This document shows positions 35,855-45,161 of a stretch of DNA of 64,000 nucleotides, in pieces. Within the stretch, counting starts at the first letter, position 1; the number at the start of each line of letters is the position of its first letter. The notes beneath the pieces are model-generated. The model was not told where the DNA came from and searched no databases. It saw nothing but the letters and a program-made list of their open reading frames with translations. Made by a program: the position numbers and the translations under genes. The DNA is from Synechococcus sp. 1G10 (GTDB lineage Bacteria; Cyanobacteriota; Cyanobacteriia; PCC-6307; Cyanobiaceae): the NCBI RefSeq assembly GCF_002252625.1, contig NZ_NQKW01000001.1:62001-126000 (forward strand), written 5' to 3'.

Positions 35855-35991
35855 TCACCTTGACCAGGAGCAGTCAGAGCTCATACGATATAAGCATCTA
35901 AGCGTCTGTAGCCCTGTAACCCGAGAGAGCGCCCGCCGTGGTTGCCGTCAGAATTCGTTGACTAATTATGCAAGAGTCTTTGGAGCAAACT

Positions 35992-36831
35992 ATGAAAATA
36001 CCTCATAATATCCCTCTTGTGCCACCATCGCCTATCCAGATCAGCGTGGGATTCAAGCTGGAGGTCAGCTGCCCCCAGCCGACCCCGATGATCGTCACTC
36101 TGGGCGTCCATGCCAGCCGGGCAGACGATCTGATTGAGCCCGACACGTTGCAGTTGGATCCGCCGGTACCGCTGCGCTCCTACGTGGATTCCTATGGAAA
36201 CCAATGCCAGCGGCTGGTGGCCCCAGCTGGGCGGCTGCAGATAACTAGCAGAGGGCTCGTAGCCGATCGCGCTCTGCCCGATCCGGTATTGCCTTGGCTG
36301 GAGCAAAGGCCGGTGGAGGATCTGCCGGATGATGCTTTGATCTTCCTGCTGGGCAGCCGCTACTGCGAGACCGATCTACTCACAGAGTTTGCCTGGTCCC
36401 AGTTCCAGCAGCCCTGCACGGGGTGGGAGCGGGTGCAAGCGATTTGCGATTACGTAAACGAGCACGTCCATTTCGACTATGGCCGTACCAACCCGACCAA
36501 ATCAGCGGTGCAGACCTTTGAAAACCGGGAGGGGGTTTGCCGCGATTTCGCCCATCTGGCAATCACCCTCTGCCGGTGCGTCAACATCCCAGCCCGATAC
36601 TGCACGGGATATCTGAGCGACATCGAAGTGCCGCCGCCCCATTCAGCGATGGACTTCCATGCCTGGTTTGAGGCCTACCTCGGTGATGGCTGGCATGTGT
36701 TCGACCCACGCAACAACACTCCGCGGATCGGGCGGATCCTGATCGCCCGTGGCCGGGATGCGGCCGATGTGGCCCTCACAACCACGTTCGGTCCTTCGGT
36801 GCTGGAGTCGTTCGAAGTCTGGACGGCATGA
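35992..36831 (+). CDS. Transglutaminase-like cysteine protease-fold protein
   Basis: ATG 35992 is chosen because GGAG lies 6 bases upstream; ATG 35968 would add 8 residues. The 279-residue protein has an N-terminal beta domain and the transglutaminase-like triad: Cys in GVCRDFAHLA, His in DFHAWFEAYL and Asp in VFDPRNN. Bacterial members are mostly peptidases or amidases rather than crosslinking enzymes. No signal peptide is seen. Confidence 0.85.
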   Translation: MKIPHNIPLVPPSPIQISVGFKLEVSCPQPTPMIVTLGVHASRADDLIEPDTLQLDPPVPLRSYVDSYGNQCQRLVAPAGRLQITSRGLVADRALPDPVLPWLEQRPVEDLPDDALIFLLGSRYCETDLLTEFAWSQFQQPCTGWERVQAICDYVNEHVHFDYGRTNPTKSAVQTFENREGVCRDFAHLAITLCRCVNIPARYCTGYLSDIEVPPPHSAMDFHAWFEAYLGDGWHVFDPRNNTPRIGRILIARGRDAADVALTTTFGPSVLESFEVWTA

Positions 36832-36989: not shown

Positions 36990-38072
36990 ATGGACTTTGT
37001 CGCCATTTCAGTTCTTGTGCGCTGGCTGCTTGGCTGGGCACTCTGCTTGAGGCTTTACCGGCTCCCTGAGGGCAAGATAAAGGGGAATCCAACCGTTTCG
37101 GTGCTGATTCCTGCTCGGGACGAGGAAGGCACTCTTCCAAATCTGCTGCCAGCCATCAATTCCCAGACTTTCACCCCCCTTGAAGTGATCGTGATTGATG
37201 ATCACTCCAGCGATCGCACCGCTTCTATCGCGGCGGATCTCGGGGCCAAGGTGATGCAACCGCCTTCTCTACCGGATGGGTGGTGCGGTAAGACCTGGGC
37301 TCTGCATCATGGTGTCAAGGCCAGCAAAGGCGAGATTCTGGTCTTCCTTGATGCCGATACCGAGCCAGCTCCCGAGTTCCTGGAGAGGCTGGTGGCTGCC
37401 CAAGAGCAGCTTGGCGGTCTGGTGTCGGTTCAGCCGTTCCATCGCACCGAGCAGGCTTACGAGCAGCTTTCGGTGCTGTTCAGCCTGGTGGGGCTGATGG
37501 CGGTGCCGATGGGGCCGGGATGCGGTGTGGCCTTCGGGCCGGCTATGGCCACCAGTCGTGCTGATTACGACAAGGTCGGTGGCCATGAAGCTGTCGCAGG
37601 CAAAGTGGTAGAGGACTGGTTCATGGGCCACTTGTATGTAGAAGCCGGATTGCCGGTGAGTGCGTACATCGGTGATGGTCTGATCGAGTACCGCATGTAT
37701 CCAGGTGGCTTCAATGACATGGTGATGGGCTTCGCCAAGAATTTCGCCACCGCTGCTGGGGAGGTTCGTGCAATCTGGATGCTGGCCGTGCTCTTGTGGA
37801 TCTCAGGCCTGTTCTGGGCCGCTTGGTGCCTGCCGGCGTCCTTGTTGGGCTGGCCATTGATGGGGCAGCCATCCGTTCTTCCCAATCTGCTCCTCTACCT
37901 TGCCTTTGCGGTGCAGCTGATCACGCTCACATGGCGAGTCGGGAACTTCGCTTGGATTTGCCTGGTGTTCCCGATCCCTGTTCTGTGTTTTCTGGGGGTC
38001 TTTGTTCTGGCAGTCTTCAATCTGAAACGCGGTACGATCGAATGGAAGGGCAGACAGTTTCAAACATATTAG
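36990..38072 (+). CDS. Membrane GT2 glycosyltransferase (CrtQ/HpnB-like)
   Basis: After an N-terminal membrane helix the GT2 domain reads VSVLIPARDEEGTLPNLL, IDDHSSDRT, then LPDGWCGKTWALHHG and FLDADTEPAP with the metal-binding DxD-type site. Three or four helices close the protein (360 aa). The WxGKxWAL segment is shared with HpnB and with CrtQ, the glycosyltransferase of staphyloxanthin synthesis. The next gene overlaps it by 31 bases and resembles CrtO, which favours a CrtQ-like role on a lipid acid. Confidence 0.8.
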   Translation: MDFVAISVLVRWLLGWALCLRLYRLPEGKIKGNPTVSVLIPARDEEGTLPNLLPAINSQTFTPLEVIVIDDHSSDRTASIAADLGAKVMQPPSLPDGWCGKTWALHHGVKASKGEILVFLDADTEPAPEFLERLVAAQEQLGGLVSVQPFHRTEQAYEQLSVLFSLVGLMAVPMGPGCGVAFGPAMATSRADYDKVGGHEAVAGKVVEDWFMGHLYVEAGLPVSAYIGDGLIEYRMYPGGFNDMVMGFAKNFATAAGEVRAIWMLAVLLWISGLFWAAWCLPASLLGWPLMGQPSVLPNLLLYLAFAVQLITLTWRVGNFAWICLVFPIPVLCFLGVFVLAVFNLKRGTIEWKGRQFQTY

Positions 38073-38542
38073 CGGCTCTGGCTTGTGCGCTTGGATGGTC
38101 GGTGTGGTCGGTGCTGGTCGGTTGGCTGGCCCATCTCTTACCCCAAGCGGCTTTAAGTAGCGACACCTGGCTCACAAGACGTCCATGGCCAGAGACCAAG
38201 CAGCTCTACCAGCAACGCCTGGGGATCCAGCACTGGAAATCCCTCTTGCCGGATGCTGGCAATGCCCTACCTGGAGGTGTGCTCAAGAACAGCCTGGTCA
38301 GCCGAGATCCTGCCACTTTGCATCGTCTTGTGGAGGAATCCAGGCGTGCAGAACTTGTGCATCTGGCCATCTGGCCCTTCTGGATCGCAACAGCTCTGTG
38401 GCTACCCCCTGCCGGTGTGTTGATAAACTTGATCTTCGCGACCCTGTTCAACCTGCCCTGCCTGTGGCTGCAGCGCTACAACCGCCTTCGGCTTCAACCC
38501 CTGCTTTTAACCATGCATGGCCGTCATTCCTCAGAATGGTGA
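38042..38542 (+). CDS. CrtO-like (glycosyl-diaponeurosporenoate-type) acyltransferase
   Basis: ATG 38042 gives 166 residues, the same length as staphylococcal CrtO. The central stretch WPETKQLYQQRLGIQHWKSLLPDAGNALPGG corresponds to the CrtO region with WKxxLPD-G, and hydrophobic helices flank it (ALACALGWSVWSVLVGW, LAIWPFWIATALWL, FNLPCLWLQRYNR). In Staphylococcus CrtO adds a fatty acyl chain to the sugar placed by CrtQ. The overlap with the GT2 gene implies coupled synthesis. Confidence 0.65.
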   Translation: MEGQTVSNILAALACALGWSVWSVLVGWLAHLLPQAALSSDTWLTRRPWPETKQLYQQRLGIQHWKSLLPDAGNALPGGVLKNSLVSRDPATLHRLVEESRRAELVHLAIWPFWIATALWLPPAGVLINLIFATLFNLPCLWLQRYNRLRLQPLLLTMHGRHSSEW

Positions 38543-39054
38543 TTCCTCAGACTGCTGATTTCTCAGCAGGTAAAAATATCCGGCAAGTGGGGTCGAGTAT
38601 GTACGTCCACTCAGCCTCAACTCTGAGCCGGTTTGGCTAGGGCCTCTGGATCCTCACAGCTTGCCTGCCTTTGCGAGGAATGGCCCTACGGGCCTTGGCC
38701 TCAGCAAAACCGCAGCAGTTGTCAACTACGAACAAAGCTGGCGACTGACGACGAAGCTTCGAGGAACAAACTCCTAGCGATCGATCAGCTCGGTCAGGAC
38801 CTGCCAAGGAGCCACCGCCAACATCTCCGCCAGGAACTTCTCCCGCTTGGTCTGATTCTTCGCGGTCATCAGCTCATCGTTAGAGATGCCGAGCCGTTGG
38901 GTTGGTGGGGGCGGGCGAAGGGTCCCAGGCTGGCAGGGGCCACCGGAATGTTAACTATGACTGTGGACTGCAGGAAAGAGCACAAGTCGTGCTCGCTGTT
39001 GCGGGGCGCCCTGTCGGCGATATCCAGGGGGCTTTGCCCAATCGCCATCGGCGA
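38543..39054. other. Spacer with transposase scrap only
   Basis: Apart from an IS5-type fragment at 38774-38869 (listed separately) I see no gene in this 512-base stretch. The plus-strand frame open from 38633 has no protein-like features. Confidence 0.5.
38774..38869 (-). pseudogene. N-terminal fragment of an IS5-family transposase
   Basis: From ATG 38869 the minus strand encodes 31 residues, TKREKFLAEMLAVAPWQVL, matching the conserved N-terminal REKFLAEMxxVVPW region of IS5-type transposases. A TAG then ends the frame, and the DDE domain is absent. No terminal repeats are evident nearby. Confidence 0.65.
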
Positions 39055-39453
39055 TCACCAGAGGGTCTGACAGGGAAAGGCGGAGAGCTGTGAATCGGCC
39101 GTCAGGAGCACCAGCCGTTCCACTTCGGCCTGGGCGGCGAGGATGCGATCGAAGGGATCTCGGTGAGATTGGGGGTAAGCCCCGGCCCTCAGCCCATGGG
39201 CTGCTGTGATCGGTAGGCCAACGAAGCCATCGGCCTGCATTAACCCCTGCAAATCAGCGATGGCATCACCGAGTTCAGGCAGCTTCCCGCGGTGGTGCTT
39301 GAGGCTGAGTTCCCACACAGATGCTGCGCTCACCAGGATCGAGCTGGTTGGGTCGATCAGCGTTTCCCGAACTGCCGAGGAAAGCCGATCCGGATCGAAC
39401 CACCACCAGAGCAGCGCATGGCTGTCGAGCAGGTAGCCCGCGGAGTTGCTCAC
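39055..39453 (-). CDS. PIN-domain ribonuclease toxin (VapC-type)
   Basis: The 132-residue protein has the four acidic residues of PIN nucleases: D10 (LLDSHALLWW), E48 (VWELSLKH), D99/D102 (HRDPFDRILAAQA) and D120 (LLTADSQL). Such toxins cleave RNA in the cytoplasm and are held in check by their antitoxin. ATG 39453 overlaps the antitoxin stop (ATGA), the usual coupling in these pairs. It is the last gene of the unit. Confidence 0.9.
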   Translation of the reverse strand: MSNSAGYLLDSHALLWWWFDPDRLSSAVRETLIDPTSSILVSAASVWELSLKHHRGKLPELGDAIADLQGLMQADGFVGLPITAAHGLRAGAYPQSHRDPFDRILAAQAEVERLVLLTADSQLSAFPCQTLW

Positions 39454-39776
39454 GTGTTGGGGGCTGCTGAGATCAGAGGGCTGTCCTCCCAGCTGGCGAG
39501 CTCATCAGCCTCCATAGGCTTCAGCAGGACAACGGGATCACCCAGGGGGCCTTGGCTGCGCAGCCGACCCGGAACACGCTGCGGGGGTGGGGATGCCAGC
39601 GGCATCAGCCGGGCCCAGGGCTTTCCGGCCTTGGCCAGAACGATCGTCTCGCCGGCATGGGCGTCATCAATCAGGCGCGACAACTGGGTTTTGGCCTGAT
39701 GCACATTCACAAGACGAGGCCCTGAGTGCGGCCCAGTGAGCTGCTCTGAAGGCGGCAACGGCAGAGCTGGCTCCAT
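39450..39776 (-). CDS. Phd/YefM-type antitoxin
   Basis: ATG 39776 is supported by GGAG 9 bases upstream; the protein is 108 residues. The Phd/YefM core VNVHQAKTQLSRLIDDAHAGETIVLAKAGKPWARL is intact and gives the DNA-binding dimer; the C-terminal Pro- and Glu-rich tail should wrap the PIN toxin encoded next. Compared with most Phd antitoxins it has about 23 extra N-terminal residues (EPALPLPPSEQ). Confidence 0.9.
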   Translation of the reverse strand: MEPALPLPPSEQLTGPHSGPRLVNVHQAKTQLSRLIDDAHAGETIVLAKAGKPWARLMPLASPPPQRVPGRLRSQGPLGDPVVLLKPMEADELASWEDSPLISAAPNT

Positions 39777-39797
39777 GGCGAAATTCTCCAATGAAAC

Positions 39798-39821
39798 ACT
39801 TAGTTTAGGCAAGGACTAAGT
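39798..39821 (-). promoter_or_regulatory. Probable operator/promoter of the toxin-antitoxin unit
   Basis: A 7-base perfect inverted repeat (39798-39804 with 39815-39821, 10-base spacer) lies 22 bases upstream of the antitoxin start. On the minus strand a TAAACT box lies inside it. Phd-type antitoxins bind such palindromes to repress their own promoter. Confidence 0.5.
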
Positions 39822-40729: not shown

Positions 40730-41785
40730 TCATGAGCTCTCCTCCAACAAGTCGCTCAGGCGAAACTCAACAACACCAGTTACGGTATCTGCGGCACCGC
40801 AATAGATCAGCACTGTTTCCCCCTGATTGATGATTCCAGTTGGGAAGACCACATTCGGCACAAGTCCCTGGCGTTCGTACTCCATTTCTGGCACCAGAAT
40901 CTGACCTCCCGCCCTGCTGATCTTCTCGGGATGATCCAGATCCAGCAGCAGCAATCCTGCGCCATAGCCGCCTATGCCGCTATCTTCTTCTCCCTTATCG
41001 TTGCCGTGGTAAATAGCCAACCAACCCGAAAACGTGCGGATCGGTGGTGTTCCTGCGCCGATGCGTCCGCGATCCCAGGCTGCGGTGGCGCTGAGAATGG
41101 GCTGGTGCCCGCCCCAATTCAGCAGATCAGGTGATGTGGCCAGCCAGATCTCAGGACGGGAGAAGATATGGGCCGCGGTGGGTCTGTGGAGAGCGAGATA
41201 CTTGTCGTCGATTTTCTCAGGGAACAGCACAACATCCTTGTTCTCCGGACAAAAGATCAGTCCGTGATACTGGAAGGAGTTGAAATCCTGGGTTGATGCC
41301 AGAGCTGTTGCCACCCCGTGAGGGGAAACGGCTACATAAGTAATATAGAAGCGATCATTGATTAGACAAATTCGAGGATCTTCCATGCCATAGGCCTCGT
41401 AGTCATGGCTGGGCCTGAGGATCTGCAGCTCGCCCGCTCCCAGACTGCGACCGTCTGGGCTGCGTACAACCCGCAGGTGGGAGGTGGAGGTGAGTCGAAG
41501 CAGGCCCGTCTTCCGGATCTTCACAACCCTTGCATCATTGAAAACAACCTCCTGCTCTGGAAGCCAGTCCGTGATCACATGACCTCTTACCACATCCCAG
41601 CGCGGCAAACCCACATAACCCGTATGGACCTGTCGCGGTGTCTCGGCAACCCGGATCAGCAGGACGACTCCCTCCGCCGTCGCCACCACTCCGGGATTGA
41701 ACGCACCGACAACGCTCAAGTCGTCCTGAGAGGGAGCGAGATCCTCCGGTCGTAGCAGACATCGGCTAGATAGACGCGGAATCAT
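40730..41785 (-). CDS. GH130-family mannoside phosphorylase-like enzyme (compact form)
   Basis: A five-bladed beta-propeller of GH130 type, 351 residues. YGMEDPRI (E135-D136) is the family signature; SHLRVVRS, YLALHRP (H200-R201) and LVPNVVFPTG are also typical, and the His-Arg fits the phosphate-binding site of GH130 phosphorylases. These cleave or form beta-mannosidic bonds with mannose-1-phosphate. It is the last gene of a four-gene operon, its start overlapping the oxidoreductase stop (ATGA). Confidence 0.85.
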   Translation of the reverse strand: MIPRLSSRCLLRPEDLAPSQDDLSVVGAFNPGVVATAEGVVLLIRVAETPRQVHTGYVGLPRWDVVRGHVITDWLPEQEVVFNDARVVKIRKTGLLRLTSTSHLRVVRSPDGRSLGAGELQILRPSHDYEAYGMEDPRICLINDRFYITYVAVSPHGVATALASTQDFNSFQYHGLIFCPENKDVVLFPEKIDDKYLALHRPTAAHIFSRPEIWLATSPDLLNWGGHQPILSATAAWDRGRIGAGTPPIRTFSGWLAIYHGNDKGEEDSGIGGYGAGLLLLDLDHPEKISRAGGQILVPEMEYERQGLVPNVVFPTGIINQGETVLIYCGAADTVTGVVEFRLSDLLEESS

Positions 41786-42894
41786 GCGCTGGAATCAGCC
41801 AGCTGAGTTGGCGCACATGCCATGGCAAGAGAGTTGCGGCCGTTGTCCTCGTTGATGACTCGTGGATGGGAGCGATCTGCCAACCAGGCAATCTGATCAG
41901 TGAACATTGCCCGTAAGAGTTCACAGTAACGGCGCATTTTTTCGACATCCATCCCTGCTCTGAGATCGATCTTTTGATACACATCAAAATGCTTGTGTCG
42001 TCCTCGAGCCAACCGCTCGGAGCCGGAATAGGTATTGATCACGTCGAGCATCGCATCAGGAAAGATCTCCATCAGTGTGCGCGACTGTGCTTCATCCACC
42101 ACAGCTCGGAGGCGGACCCGAGTGGGCACCCATTCATCAAGGGTCAACTCACCGCGCTCAAACAGAAGACGGAATTCCTGGCGTTCCAGGCGCGCCGACT
42201 GAGTGAACCCATGATAGAAAGTTACCAGCGCACCATTGGCATAGCGCACCACGCACTGCACCTGTTCCTCCAGCCCAGAGCCGGGGCGCAGGACGCGCTG
42301 AGAGGCCACAACCATACCCTTACCCAGCCAGCCTTCGAATAGATCAAAAAAGTGCACTCCGTGTTCAATGAAAATGCCACCACTTTTGCTGCTGTCCCAG
42401 AACCAGTGTTCCGGTGAAAGCCCCTCATCACCTGCGGCATTGTCAAACCAACCGTGCAGGAACTCCCCAAGAACCCGCGATTCGATCAGTTGACGCACTG
42501 CTTCGAACAGAGGATTGTAGCGCTGCATCAGATTGGCGATGCAAAGTTGATTGCCGGCACGGGCCATTTGGAGCAGCTCATCAGCCTGCGGCAGCGTGAG
42601 CGCCAACGGCTTTTCGCAGATCACATGCTTCCCTGCCTCCAAGGCGGCACGGGCTTGGGGGTAATGGAGGAACGGCGGCGTGGCGATGTAGACAAGATCG
42701 ACCTCATCCAGTTGGAGCAGGCTCTCCACCTCCAGTGTTTCAGTCACTCCAAAACGGCGGGCCATGGCAATGGCCGCCTCGCGATGGGTGCCGGCGATGG
42801 CGACAAGCTCCACCCCCTTGACCTGGAGAAACTGCTGCAGTGCAAACAGGCCAAACCCGCCTGCTCCGACTGCGCCGATCCGGATTCTGTTCAT
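41782..42894 (-). CDS. Gfo/Idh/MocA-family sugar oxidoreductase
   Basis: The Rossmann N-terminus has GAVGAGGFG; the active-site motif is CEKPLAL (EKP) near residue 95. The C-terminal half (WFDNAAGDEGL, GGIFIEHGVHFFDLF) holds the substrate-side His-D pair typical of the family. Enzymes of this type oxidise or epimerise sugars or sugar nucleotides with NAD(P). It overlaps by 4 bases both neighbours, so it is part of the GH130/GT4 operon. 370 residues. Confidence 0.9.
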   Translation of the reverse strand: MNRIRIGAVGAGGFGLFALQQFLQVKGVELVAIAGTHREAAIAMARRFGVTETLEVESLLQLDEVDLVYIATPPFLHYPQARAALEAGKHVICEKPLALTLPQADELLQMARAGNQLCIANLMQRYNPLFEAVRQLIESRVLGEFLHGWFDNAAGDEGLSPEHWFWDSSKSGGIFIEHGVHFFDLFEGWLGKGMVVASQRVLRPGSGLEEQVQCVVRYANGALVTFYHGFTQSARLERQEFRLLFERGELTLDEWVPTRVRLRAVVDEAQSRTLMEIFPDAMLDVINTYSGSERLARGRHKHFDVYQKIDLRAGMDVEKMRRYCELLRAMFTDQIAWLADRSHPRVINEDNGRNSLAMACAPTQLADSSA

Positions 42895-45161
42895 GGCATG
42901 TGCAGGGGATGGCGAGTGTGCTCAAGAAGTCGCATCTCCTGGAGAGCCAGAAGAAAGGCAAGAGTTGATTCGGCACCCTGGTTCAGGTTGACACTGTCAT
43001 CTTGAAGACCATCGAAGCAGCCGCCTGTTCGCGCGTCATAGAGCGGCAGTTGGAGGTCGTTGCCACCGAGAAACCAAGCGAAGGCTCGCCATGCCTCGCC
43101 CAACCAGAAGTCATCCCCTGTTGCGGACCAAGCCTCAACGCAGGCGGAAACTGAGGCGCAGGCCTCAAGGGGTTGCTGGTCGAAGGTGGCCCGGTGCTGC
43201 CCTCTCCTATAGAAACCGTTAGACCCGATCGGTCTGAAGTGGCCGGCCTCAGCGGTTTGCACACCCATCAGCCAGCGAAGGCTGCGAAGGCCAACATCAA
43301 GGGCTTCTTGGCGCTGCGACCAGCGACCGCTGAGAATCAGCGCGTGCGGGAGAGAAGCATTGTCATAGCTGAGTATATTCTCAAACCAGGGCCATTCATC
43401 CATGCAGTTTTCATGGAAGGCTTCCAATAACTGTTCGGTCAGGGTATCGCGCATCAGATCGACGGTTCGATCCCCACTCAGTTTTCGCAGGTACTCATGA
43501 ATGGCTTTGAGCCCAAGGGCCCAGGCCCTTGGGCTCGTTGTCTTCGTGATTGACGGCAATGCCACCTGAAAGAGTTCCACTGCCCAGTGGCGCAAGTCGT
43601 CTCGGCGTGATCGCCCCACGCAGGCACCCAACGCCAGGAGCGTGCGCCCCAGGCAATCATCTGAGCCATCTTCATCGAGCCAGGTGCGCTCGAAGCTCAT
43701 GAAGTTGTGAAACCGGCAGGTTTCTGGGATGAAGGCATAGTTAACAAAGGAGCCGTAACAAGTGGCCAGTGCCTGCACTTCTGGAGTGATGTCGCCAGAC
43801 TCTTCGAGCAATACAAGCAATTGCAAGGCACGCACATTGTCATCCGTGCAATAGCCCTCCTTGAAGTTGGGAAGTGTGTATTTTGCGTGCTGATAGATAC
43901 CTGTCGAATCCGATATCCTCCTCAGGTGCTCCAGGCTCAAGGCCGGTAGCTCGCGCGGCTCCTGCTCCAAGGGCTTTTGCAGGGAGTGTGGAACAACTCT
44001 GTTGCCGCGGTCCAGTCTGGCTCGCTCAAAGGAGGAGTAGTAGAGAGCGGCTGCCCGGCTCCAGATCATGCCACGACCTAGTAAATAGGCCTGTTTGCGC
44101 ATGGCGTGACGACGAACGTCATCCATCAGCAAGCCGATGAGCGCTTTGGCGATGGAGTCACTGTCACGAAACGGCACCAGCACCCCTCGCCCTTCGGCAA
44201 GCAGTTCTTCGGCATGCCAATAAGGCGTGGAGATCACCGCCTTGCCGCAACCAAAGGCGTAGGAAAGTGTCCCGGAGGTAATCTGATCAGGATTCAGATA
44301 GGGTGTGATATAGATATCTGCGACGCCAAGGAAGTCTTTTAACTCTTCGAAACCAACGAATCGATTATAAAAGATAACCTGTTTTCTAACCCCTAATTCG
44401 TTCGCAAGTCTCTCCAGGCTCAGCCTGTAGGTCTCGCCCTGCTCGCGCAATAGGTGGGGGTGGGTGGCGCCCAAAACGATGTACACCATCTCGGGAAACT
44501 CCTTGACGACCTCGGGCAAGGCACGGATCACTGTCTCAATACCCTTGGCTGGTGAGATCAGCCCAAAGGTCAGTAGGACCTGTTTGCCCTCAACACCGAA
44601 CTGATCTTTGTAATAGTTCGGATCAACAAACGGCATATCTGGTACACCATGGGGAATCACATCAAGATGATCGGTGGTAACTTCGTAGATTTCTTCCAGA
44701 ATCCGCTTGCCGCGATCGCTCATCACAATGATCCGGGTCGACAGGGCGATGAGTTCCTTCATCACACGCCTCTGATCGACGGTCGGTTCCTCCAGGATCG
44801 TGTGGAGCTGGGTGACCACTGGGAGATCGACATTGCCAAGCAACGTCAGGATGTGGCTGCCAGCCGGACCACCATAGATCCCAAATTCGTGCTGCAAACA
44901 AATGACATCGGCATCGGTCAAGTTCAGGAAGTCCGCTGCACGGCGATAACTGCGAAGATCCTGTTCGGCAATTTCAAAGCGAACTTCGGGAGGATAGGCA
45001 TAGCCCTCCGGTACGTCGTTGACAGCCACGACGAAGCAATCATTAATAGGCGCGTCGTCTGTAAGCGAGCGGTATACAGAATGAGCAAAGGTGGCGATAC
45101 CGCACTTTCGCGGCAGATAGTCGCCAATGATGGCAATCTTGCGCGTGGATCTTGGATTCAC
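42891..45161 (-). CDS. GT4 glycosyltransferase fused to a C-terminal helical domain
   Basis: Residues 1-390 form a GT-B GT4 domain: GDYLPRKCGIATFA, HEFGIYGGPAG, VIPHGVPD, LTFGLISPAKG and YAFGCGKAVISTPYWHAEELL, which includes the conserved late Glu. Residues 400-756 look like an alpha/alpha barrel (YTLPNFKEGYCTDDNVRAL, GSDDCLGRTLLALG, WPWFENILSYDNASLPHALIL) as in sugar-processing hydrolases/epimerases. It starts 2 bases after the GH130 stop upstream. The fused layout suggests assembly plus trimming of one glycan (inference). Confidence 0.85.
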   Translation of the reverse strand: MNPRSTRKIAIIGDYLPRKCGIATFAHSVYRSLTDDAPINDCFVVAVNDVPEGYAYPPEVRFEIAEQDLRSYRRAADFLNLTDADVICLQHEFGIYGGPAGSHILTLLGNVDLPVVTQLHTILEEPTVDQRRVMKELIALSTRIIVMSDRGKRILEEIYEVTTDHLDVIPHGVPDMPFVDPNYYKDQFGVEGKQVLLTFGLISPAKGIETVIRALPEVVKEFPEMVYIVLGATHPHLLREQGETYRLSLERLANELGVRKQVIFYNRFVGFEELKDFLGVADIYITPYLNPDQITSGTLSYAFGCGKAVISTPYWHAEELLAEGRGVLVPFRDSDSIAKALIGLLMDDVRRHAMRKQAYLLGRGMIWSRAAALYYSSFERARLDRGNRVVPHSLQKPLEQEPRELPALSLEHLRRISDSTGIYQHAKYTLPNFKEGYCTDDNVRALQLLVLLEESGDITPEVQALATCYGSFVNYAFIPETCRFHNFMSFERTWLDEDGSDDCLGRTLLALGACVGRSRRDDLRHWAVELFQVALPSITKTTSPRAWALGLKAIHEYLRKLSGDRTVDLMRDTLTEQLLEAFHENCMDEWPWFENILSYDNASLPHALILSGRWSQRQEALDVGLRSLRWLMGVQTAEAGHFRPIGSNGFYRRGQHRATFDQQPLEACASVSACVEAWSATGDDFWLGEAWRAFAWFLGGNDLQLPLYDARTGGCFDGLQDDSVNLNQGAESTLAFLLALQEMRLLEHTRHPLHMP

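Follow-up and report, generated by a model that had tools for sequence, protein, structure and literature searches.

What does a cyanobacterium build with two genes that resemble the last two steps of staphyloxanthin synthesis? The question arises in Synechococcus sp. 1G10, from which we analysed a 64,000-nucleotide stretch of DNA (the window) and the genome around it. The initial annotation reported a membrane GT2 glycosyltransferase (GT) gene overlapping by 31 bases the gene of a 166-residue protein with the WKxxLPD region of CrtO; the reading frames confirm this layout (Table 1), and the motif is present as WKSLLPD. CrtQ and CrtO are used here in the staphylococcal sense; in cyanobacteria, CrtQ usually denotes zeta-carotene desaturase and CrtO beta-carotene ketolase, which are different proteins (PMC2889829; PMC8156961).

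Table 1. Features at and around the gene pair (window coordinates)
Feature	Position	Strand	Details
Transglutaminase-like protein	35968..36831	+	PF01841; conserved upstream neighbour of the pair
Membrane GT2 glycosyltransferase, CrtQ clade	36990..38072	+	360 aa; PF00535, 83.7 bits; with staphylococcal CrtQ in tree, 100/100
CrtO-type acyltransferase (candidate)	38042..38542	+	166 aa, ATG at 38042; PF18927, 93.5 bits
Reading-frame overlap GT2/CrtO	38042..38072	+	31 bases
Two overlapping ORFs	39055..39812	-	PIN toxin and Phd-type antitoxin by eye; directly downstream of the pair
Three abutting ORFs	40730..45161	-	GH130-type enzyme, oxidoreductase and glycosyltransferase by eye

A conserved CrtQ/CrtO-type pair

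Profile comparison upholds the proposed membership of the second protein in the CrtO family, its score against the Pfam CrtO model exceeding the curated cut-off of 27.3 bits. WKxxLPD is common to staphylococcal CrtO, as are E(T/S)RRAExVHL (ESRRAELVHL in the window) and NxPCxxxQRYNR, which are the stronger family motifs. Searching plasmids with CrtO (tblastn) retrieves a Picosynechococcus PCC 7003 plasmid carrying the whole pair, then mostly staphylococcal crt operons. An AlphaFold2 model (15 close sequences, pLDDT 77) forms mainly three long helices; it has no PDB match at E <= 0.001, and neither sequence nor fold search returns a solved structure for the family. We had looked to the fold for a hint at the acyltransferase mechanism and dropped this line because the PDB gave no significant match. 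By family resemblance, the protein is a candidate acyltransferase that would act on a glycosylated lipid.

The nearest relatives of the pair come from Synechococcus, Cyanobium and Aphanothece, which identifies the sequence as cyanobacterial. GT directly precedes CrtO in all 14 of the first relatives found, with a comparable overlap in close ones (for example, loci L002, L004 and L006); the overlap may couple their translation. Purifying selection acts on both genes (dN/dS 0.07-0.15 for GT, 0.10-0.26 for CrtO). The transglutaminase-like gene lies upstream in loci L002-L010 and L025, and a relative of its product (38%) is encoded directly downstream of CrtO in L026. Compared with Synechococcus sp. 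J7-Johnson (locus L003; window 38042-38679), synonymous divergence rises from 0.09 in GT to 0.46 in CrtO amid flanking DNA that is 97% identical, a sign that the CrtO end has been exchanged locally.

The glycosyltransferase groups with staphylococcal CrtQ

The GT protein has DAD and ED motifs, C-terminal hydrophobic helices and a WKGR tail, and in Pfam it matches general GT2 models. HpnB, suggested initially as a relative, is its best-scoring curated NCBIfam model together with CruG, but its 82 bits fall far short of the required 379 (CruG, 69.8 of 600), so that the kinship lacks support, and HpnB is separate in the tree. In that tree (44 proteins, long branches flagged) the cyanobacterial GTs form one clade (support 98/99) that joins staphylococcal CrtQ and a Cytobacillus GT at 100/100, so the GT does not nest with unrelated GT2 clades. 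The Cytobacillus protein, whose gene adjoins a CrtO and crtI, is long-branched; a second tree without it and MgdA retains the join to staphylococcal CrtQ with support of 100. Outside the CrtQ clade fall Thermus, Deinococcus and alphaproteobacterial GTs adjoining lysophospholipid acyltransferases, CruG and the GT of genome G175 (a presumed HpnB, close to squalene-hopene cyclase); three presumed MgdA sequences, their identity guessed from length, form a distant separate clade. Within this sample, CrtO-accompanied GTs are therefore one clade, apart from those with other acyltransferases, and the nearest characterised clade to the window GT is CrtQ.

Plasmid searches with the GT (tblastn) return the PCC 7003 plasmid with the whole pair and then carotenoid clusters. 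Of the annotated non-cyanobacterial relatives examined, most belong to carotenoid gene clusters that also encode CrtO or a lysophospholipid acyltransferase (Staphylococcus, Deinococcus, Thermus, Microvirga, Palleronia, Azospirillum and Gluconobacter).

As in Staphylococcus, the window holds the two enzyme types in one operon, with a CrtO recognised by Pfam and a GT in a fully supported sister clade, at about 31-34% identity. The window genes overlap directly in the order GT then CrtO, whereas crtP separates the staphylococcal genes; crtM, crtN and crtP are absent nearby, and, unlike staphylococcal CrtQ/CrtO, the pair has GH3 and hydrolase partners in its relatives. Methylobacterium offers a second parallel, in which deletions established that a CrtQ-like GT and a neighbouring acyltransferase attach the sugar and the acyl group to a carotenoid acid (PMC10448405). 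Its META1p3663/META1p3664, like the Thermus pTT27 GT and acyltransferase, join a carotenoid GT2 to an acyltransferase and yield an acyl-glycoside; that acyltransferase is of the lysophospholipid type, however, in place of CrtO. The Thermus and alphaproteobacterial GTs fall in clades separate from the window GT (the Methylobacterium GT is not in the tree). CruG, the cyanobacterial myxol glycosyltransferase, is likewise a membrane GT2 acting on a carotenoid, but the window GT scores far below its cut-off, sits in another clade and belongs to a genome without CruF. The window genes are thus a real CrtQ/CrtO-type pair.

Strict co-occurrence and a wider module

Presence was called for CrtO above its cut-off and, in 292 cyanobacteria, for GT at E <= 1e-40. 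By these calls CrtO occurs in 7 of the 292, from four families, and GT in exactly those seven; in the window's own family the same 39 of 151 genomes have both (counts uncorrected for shared ancestry). Even where the two genes lie far apart (G239, G309), both are kept. Genome G268 has a weak CrtO fragment with an internal stop (loci L022/L029), a probable decayed copy, and no GT of the CrtQ clade.

In most family members the alpha/beta-hydrolase gene comes first, followed by GT, CrtO and a convergent GH3. Of the 39 carriers, 36 have GH3, as do 2 of the 112 non-carriers (Fisher p 8e-29, with no correction for ancestry); GH3 also occurs in genomes where it is unlinked to CrtO (the window's own, G309, G321 and G352). 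It retains the (S/T)DF nucleophile motif, its nearest solved structures are beta-glucosidases, and between EGEHIHPGD and the FAxGD motif the module GH3s have a conserved insert of ~45 residues (seen in locus L075 6776-8968, L070, L002 and others), whose hydrophobic and basic composition could allow membrane contact. The hydrolase retains a GxSxG motif (GFSIG) and shows a weak resemblance to palmitoyl thioesterases; a second copy of it is found in most carriers but is missing from most non-carriers.

At the window itself, the pair lacks GH3 and hydrolase, both of which lie elsewhere in the genome beside a second GT (71% identical) that has no CrtO (locus L070 8141-12144); the module thus seems to have been duplicated, with the window pair as its CrtO-bearing copy. 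In G239, hydrolase-CrtO-GH3 and hydrolase-GT are separated by 850 kb (loci L023, L071), an arrangement that looks like reciprocal loss following module duplication.

What the pair may make

We propose, with moderate confidence, that the window encodes a CrtQ/CrtO-type tailoring pair making an acylated glycoside of, most likely, a C40 xanthophyll, with turnover by GH3 and the hydrolase in its relatives. Starting from the observed family membership, phylogeny, co-occurrence and selection, we infer what the two enzymes do, which sugar and acceptor they use and how the product is turned over, as follows. With a sugar nucleotide as donor, the GT2 would transfer a hexose (probably glucose) onto a membrane lipid, and CrtO would next esterify that sugar with a fatty acid; glycosylation followed by acylation, as first suggested, is still the likely chemistry. 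The acceptor would most likely be a C40 xanthophyll already produced by the cell, and the GH3 beta-glucosidase and alpha/beta-hydrolase, encoded in the same module in most relatives, would probably strip sugar and acyl group again.

The initial annotation had named a cyanobacterial carotenoid, a hopanoid or another lipid as acceptor, and had seen no carotenoid backbone genes nearby. Tblastn with eight query proteins indeed finds none in the window, and no carotenoid gene was recognised beside the cyanobacterial pair at any copy examined. A core xanthophyll requires no extra gene and so fits this absence. A review on pigments in cyanobacteria lists zeaxanthin, lutein and beta-carotene for Cyanobium; acyl-glycosides go unmentioned in the relevant passages, which, like the missing carotenoid linkage, counts against the proposal (PMC8156961). 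The Thermus relative of the GT belongs to a carotenoid cluster that also contains a P450 and a lycopene cyclase. Thermus produces acylated zeaxanthin glucosides. Our best guess for the acceptor is accordingly a C40 xanthophyll such as zeaxanthin, the carotenoid part of the original suggestion being tenable.

The same two steps might instead modify a membrane lipid other than a carotenoid, for example diacylglycerol, a fatty alcohol, a fatty acid or some further prenyl lipid, and the resulting acylated glycolipid could be dismantled by GH3 and the hydrolase; we consider this possible, though less likely. It would suit the missing carotenoid linkage and the GH3 insert, and in Vescimonas fastidiosa (locus L032 7091-9517) genes for DegV, a CrtO-like protein and a UgtP-like diacylglycerol glucosyltransferase stand in a row. 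As in the window, a CrtO-like protein there adjoins a lipid glycosyltransferase, with no carotenoid genes nearby, which suggests that the CrtO family reaches beyond carotenoids and that gut Clostridia may contain a CrtO-acylated glucolipid. The Vescimonas GT, however, belongs to a different GT family, fitting diglucosyl-diacylglycerol synthase models as the window GT does not, and the clade of the window GT lies amid carotenoid glycosyltransferases.

A carotenoid or apocarotenoid carboxylic acid, the type of acceptor used in Staphylococcus, seems unlikely here. Such an acid would arise by cleavage or oxidation of a C40 carotenoid, or be synechoxanthin where CruE is present. The closest characterised GTs (CrtQ and META1p3663) do act on carotenoid acids, and G083 and G119 have two-piece matches of ~650 aa that are CruE-like by length and match pattern. 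Neither the window genome nor most carriers examined have such a match, though, and one more occurs in the non-carrier G268, so synechoxanthin, a carotenoid dicarboxylic acid, was set aside as a general acceptor. Nor is there a second phytoene/squalene synthase for a C30 backbone route: the window's genome, 99.9% complete, has a single such gene (SQS_PSY). Together with the absence of squalene-hopene cyclase and CruF (PF04240) from that genome, this makes squalene-synthase-type C30, hopanoid and myxol acceptors unlikely. Hopanoid glycosylation by an HpnB-like enzyme or myxoxanthophyll synthesis by a CruG-like one, for which the ranking of the curated models speaks, is highly improbable given the scores, the tree and these two gene absences, and for the window genome it is refuted (as is the hopanoid named initially) unless the assembly misses those genes.

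Implications

To our knowledge, CrtO-type enzymes have not been described as making acylated carotenoid glycosides in cyanobacteria, and our literature search found no paper on CrtO-type acyltransferases or their acylated carotenoid glycosides in this group. New here is the wider module with GH3 and the hydrolase; like the strict co-occurrence and the genome's other GT copy, it lay beyond what the initial annotation could see. We tentatively suggest that picocyanobacteria have a four-gene make-and-unmake module (CrtQ-clade GT, CrtO, GH3 glucosidase and alpha/beta-hydrolase), which would build and recycle an undescribed acyl-glycosyl lipid or pigment without dedicated backbone genes.

Some freshwater cyanobacteria, then, have cousins of CrtQ and CrtO and, because they lack the genes for the staphylococcal golden pigment, probably make a different acylated sugar-lipid. 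If so, some quarter of the genomes sampled in the window's family would produce a membrane compound that has gone unsought, and saponification of pigment extracts could have concealed an acyl-glycoside. CrtO would then acylate sugars more generally than its name, taken from staphyloxanthin, implies, and the strict co-occurrence with GT renders the acyl-glycoside prediction directly testable.
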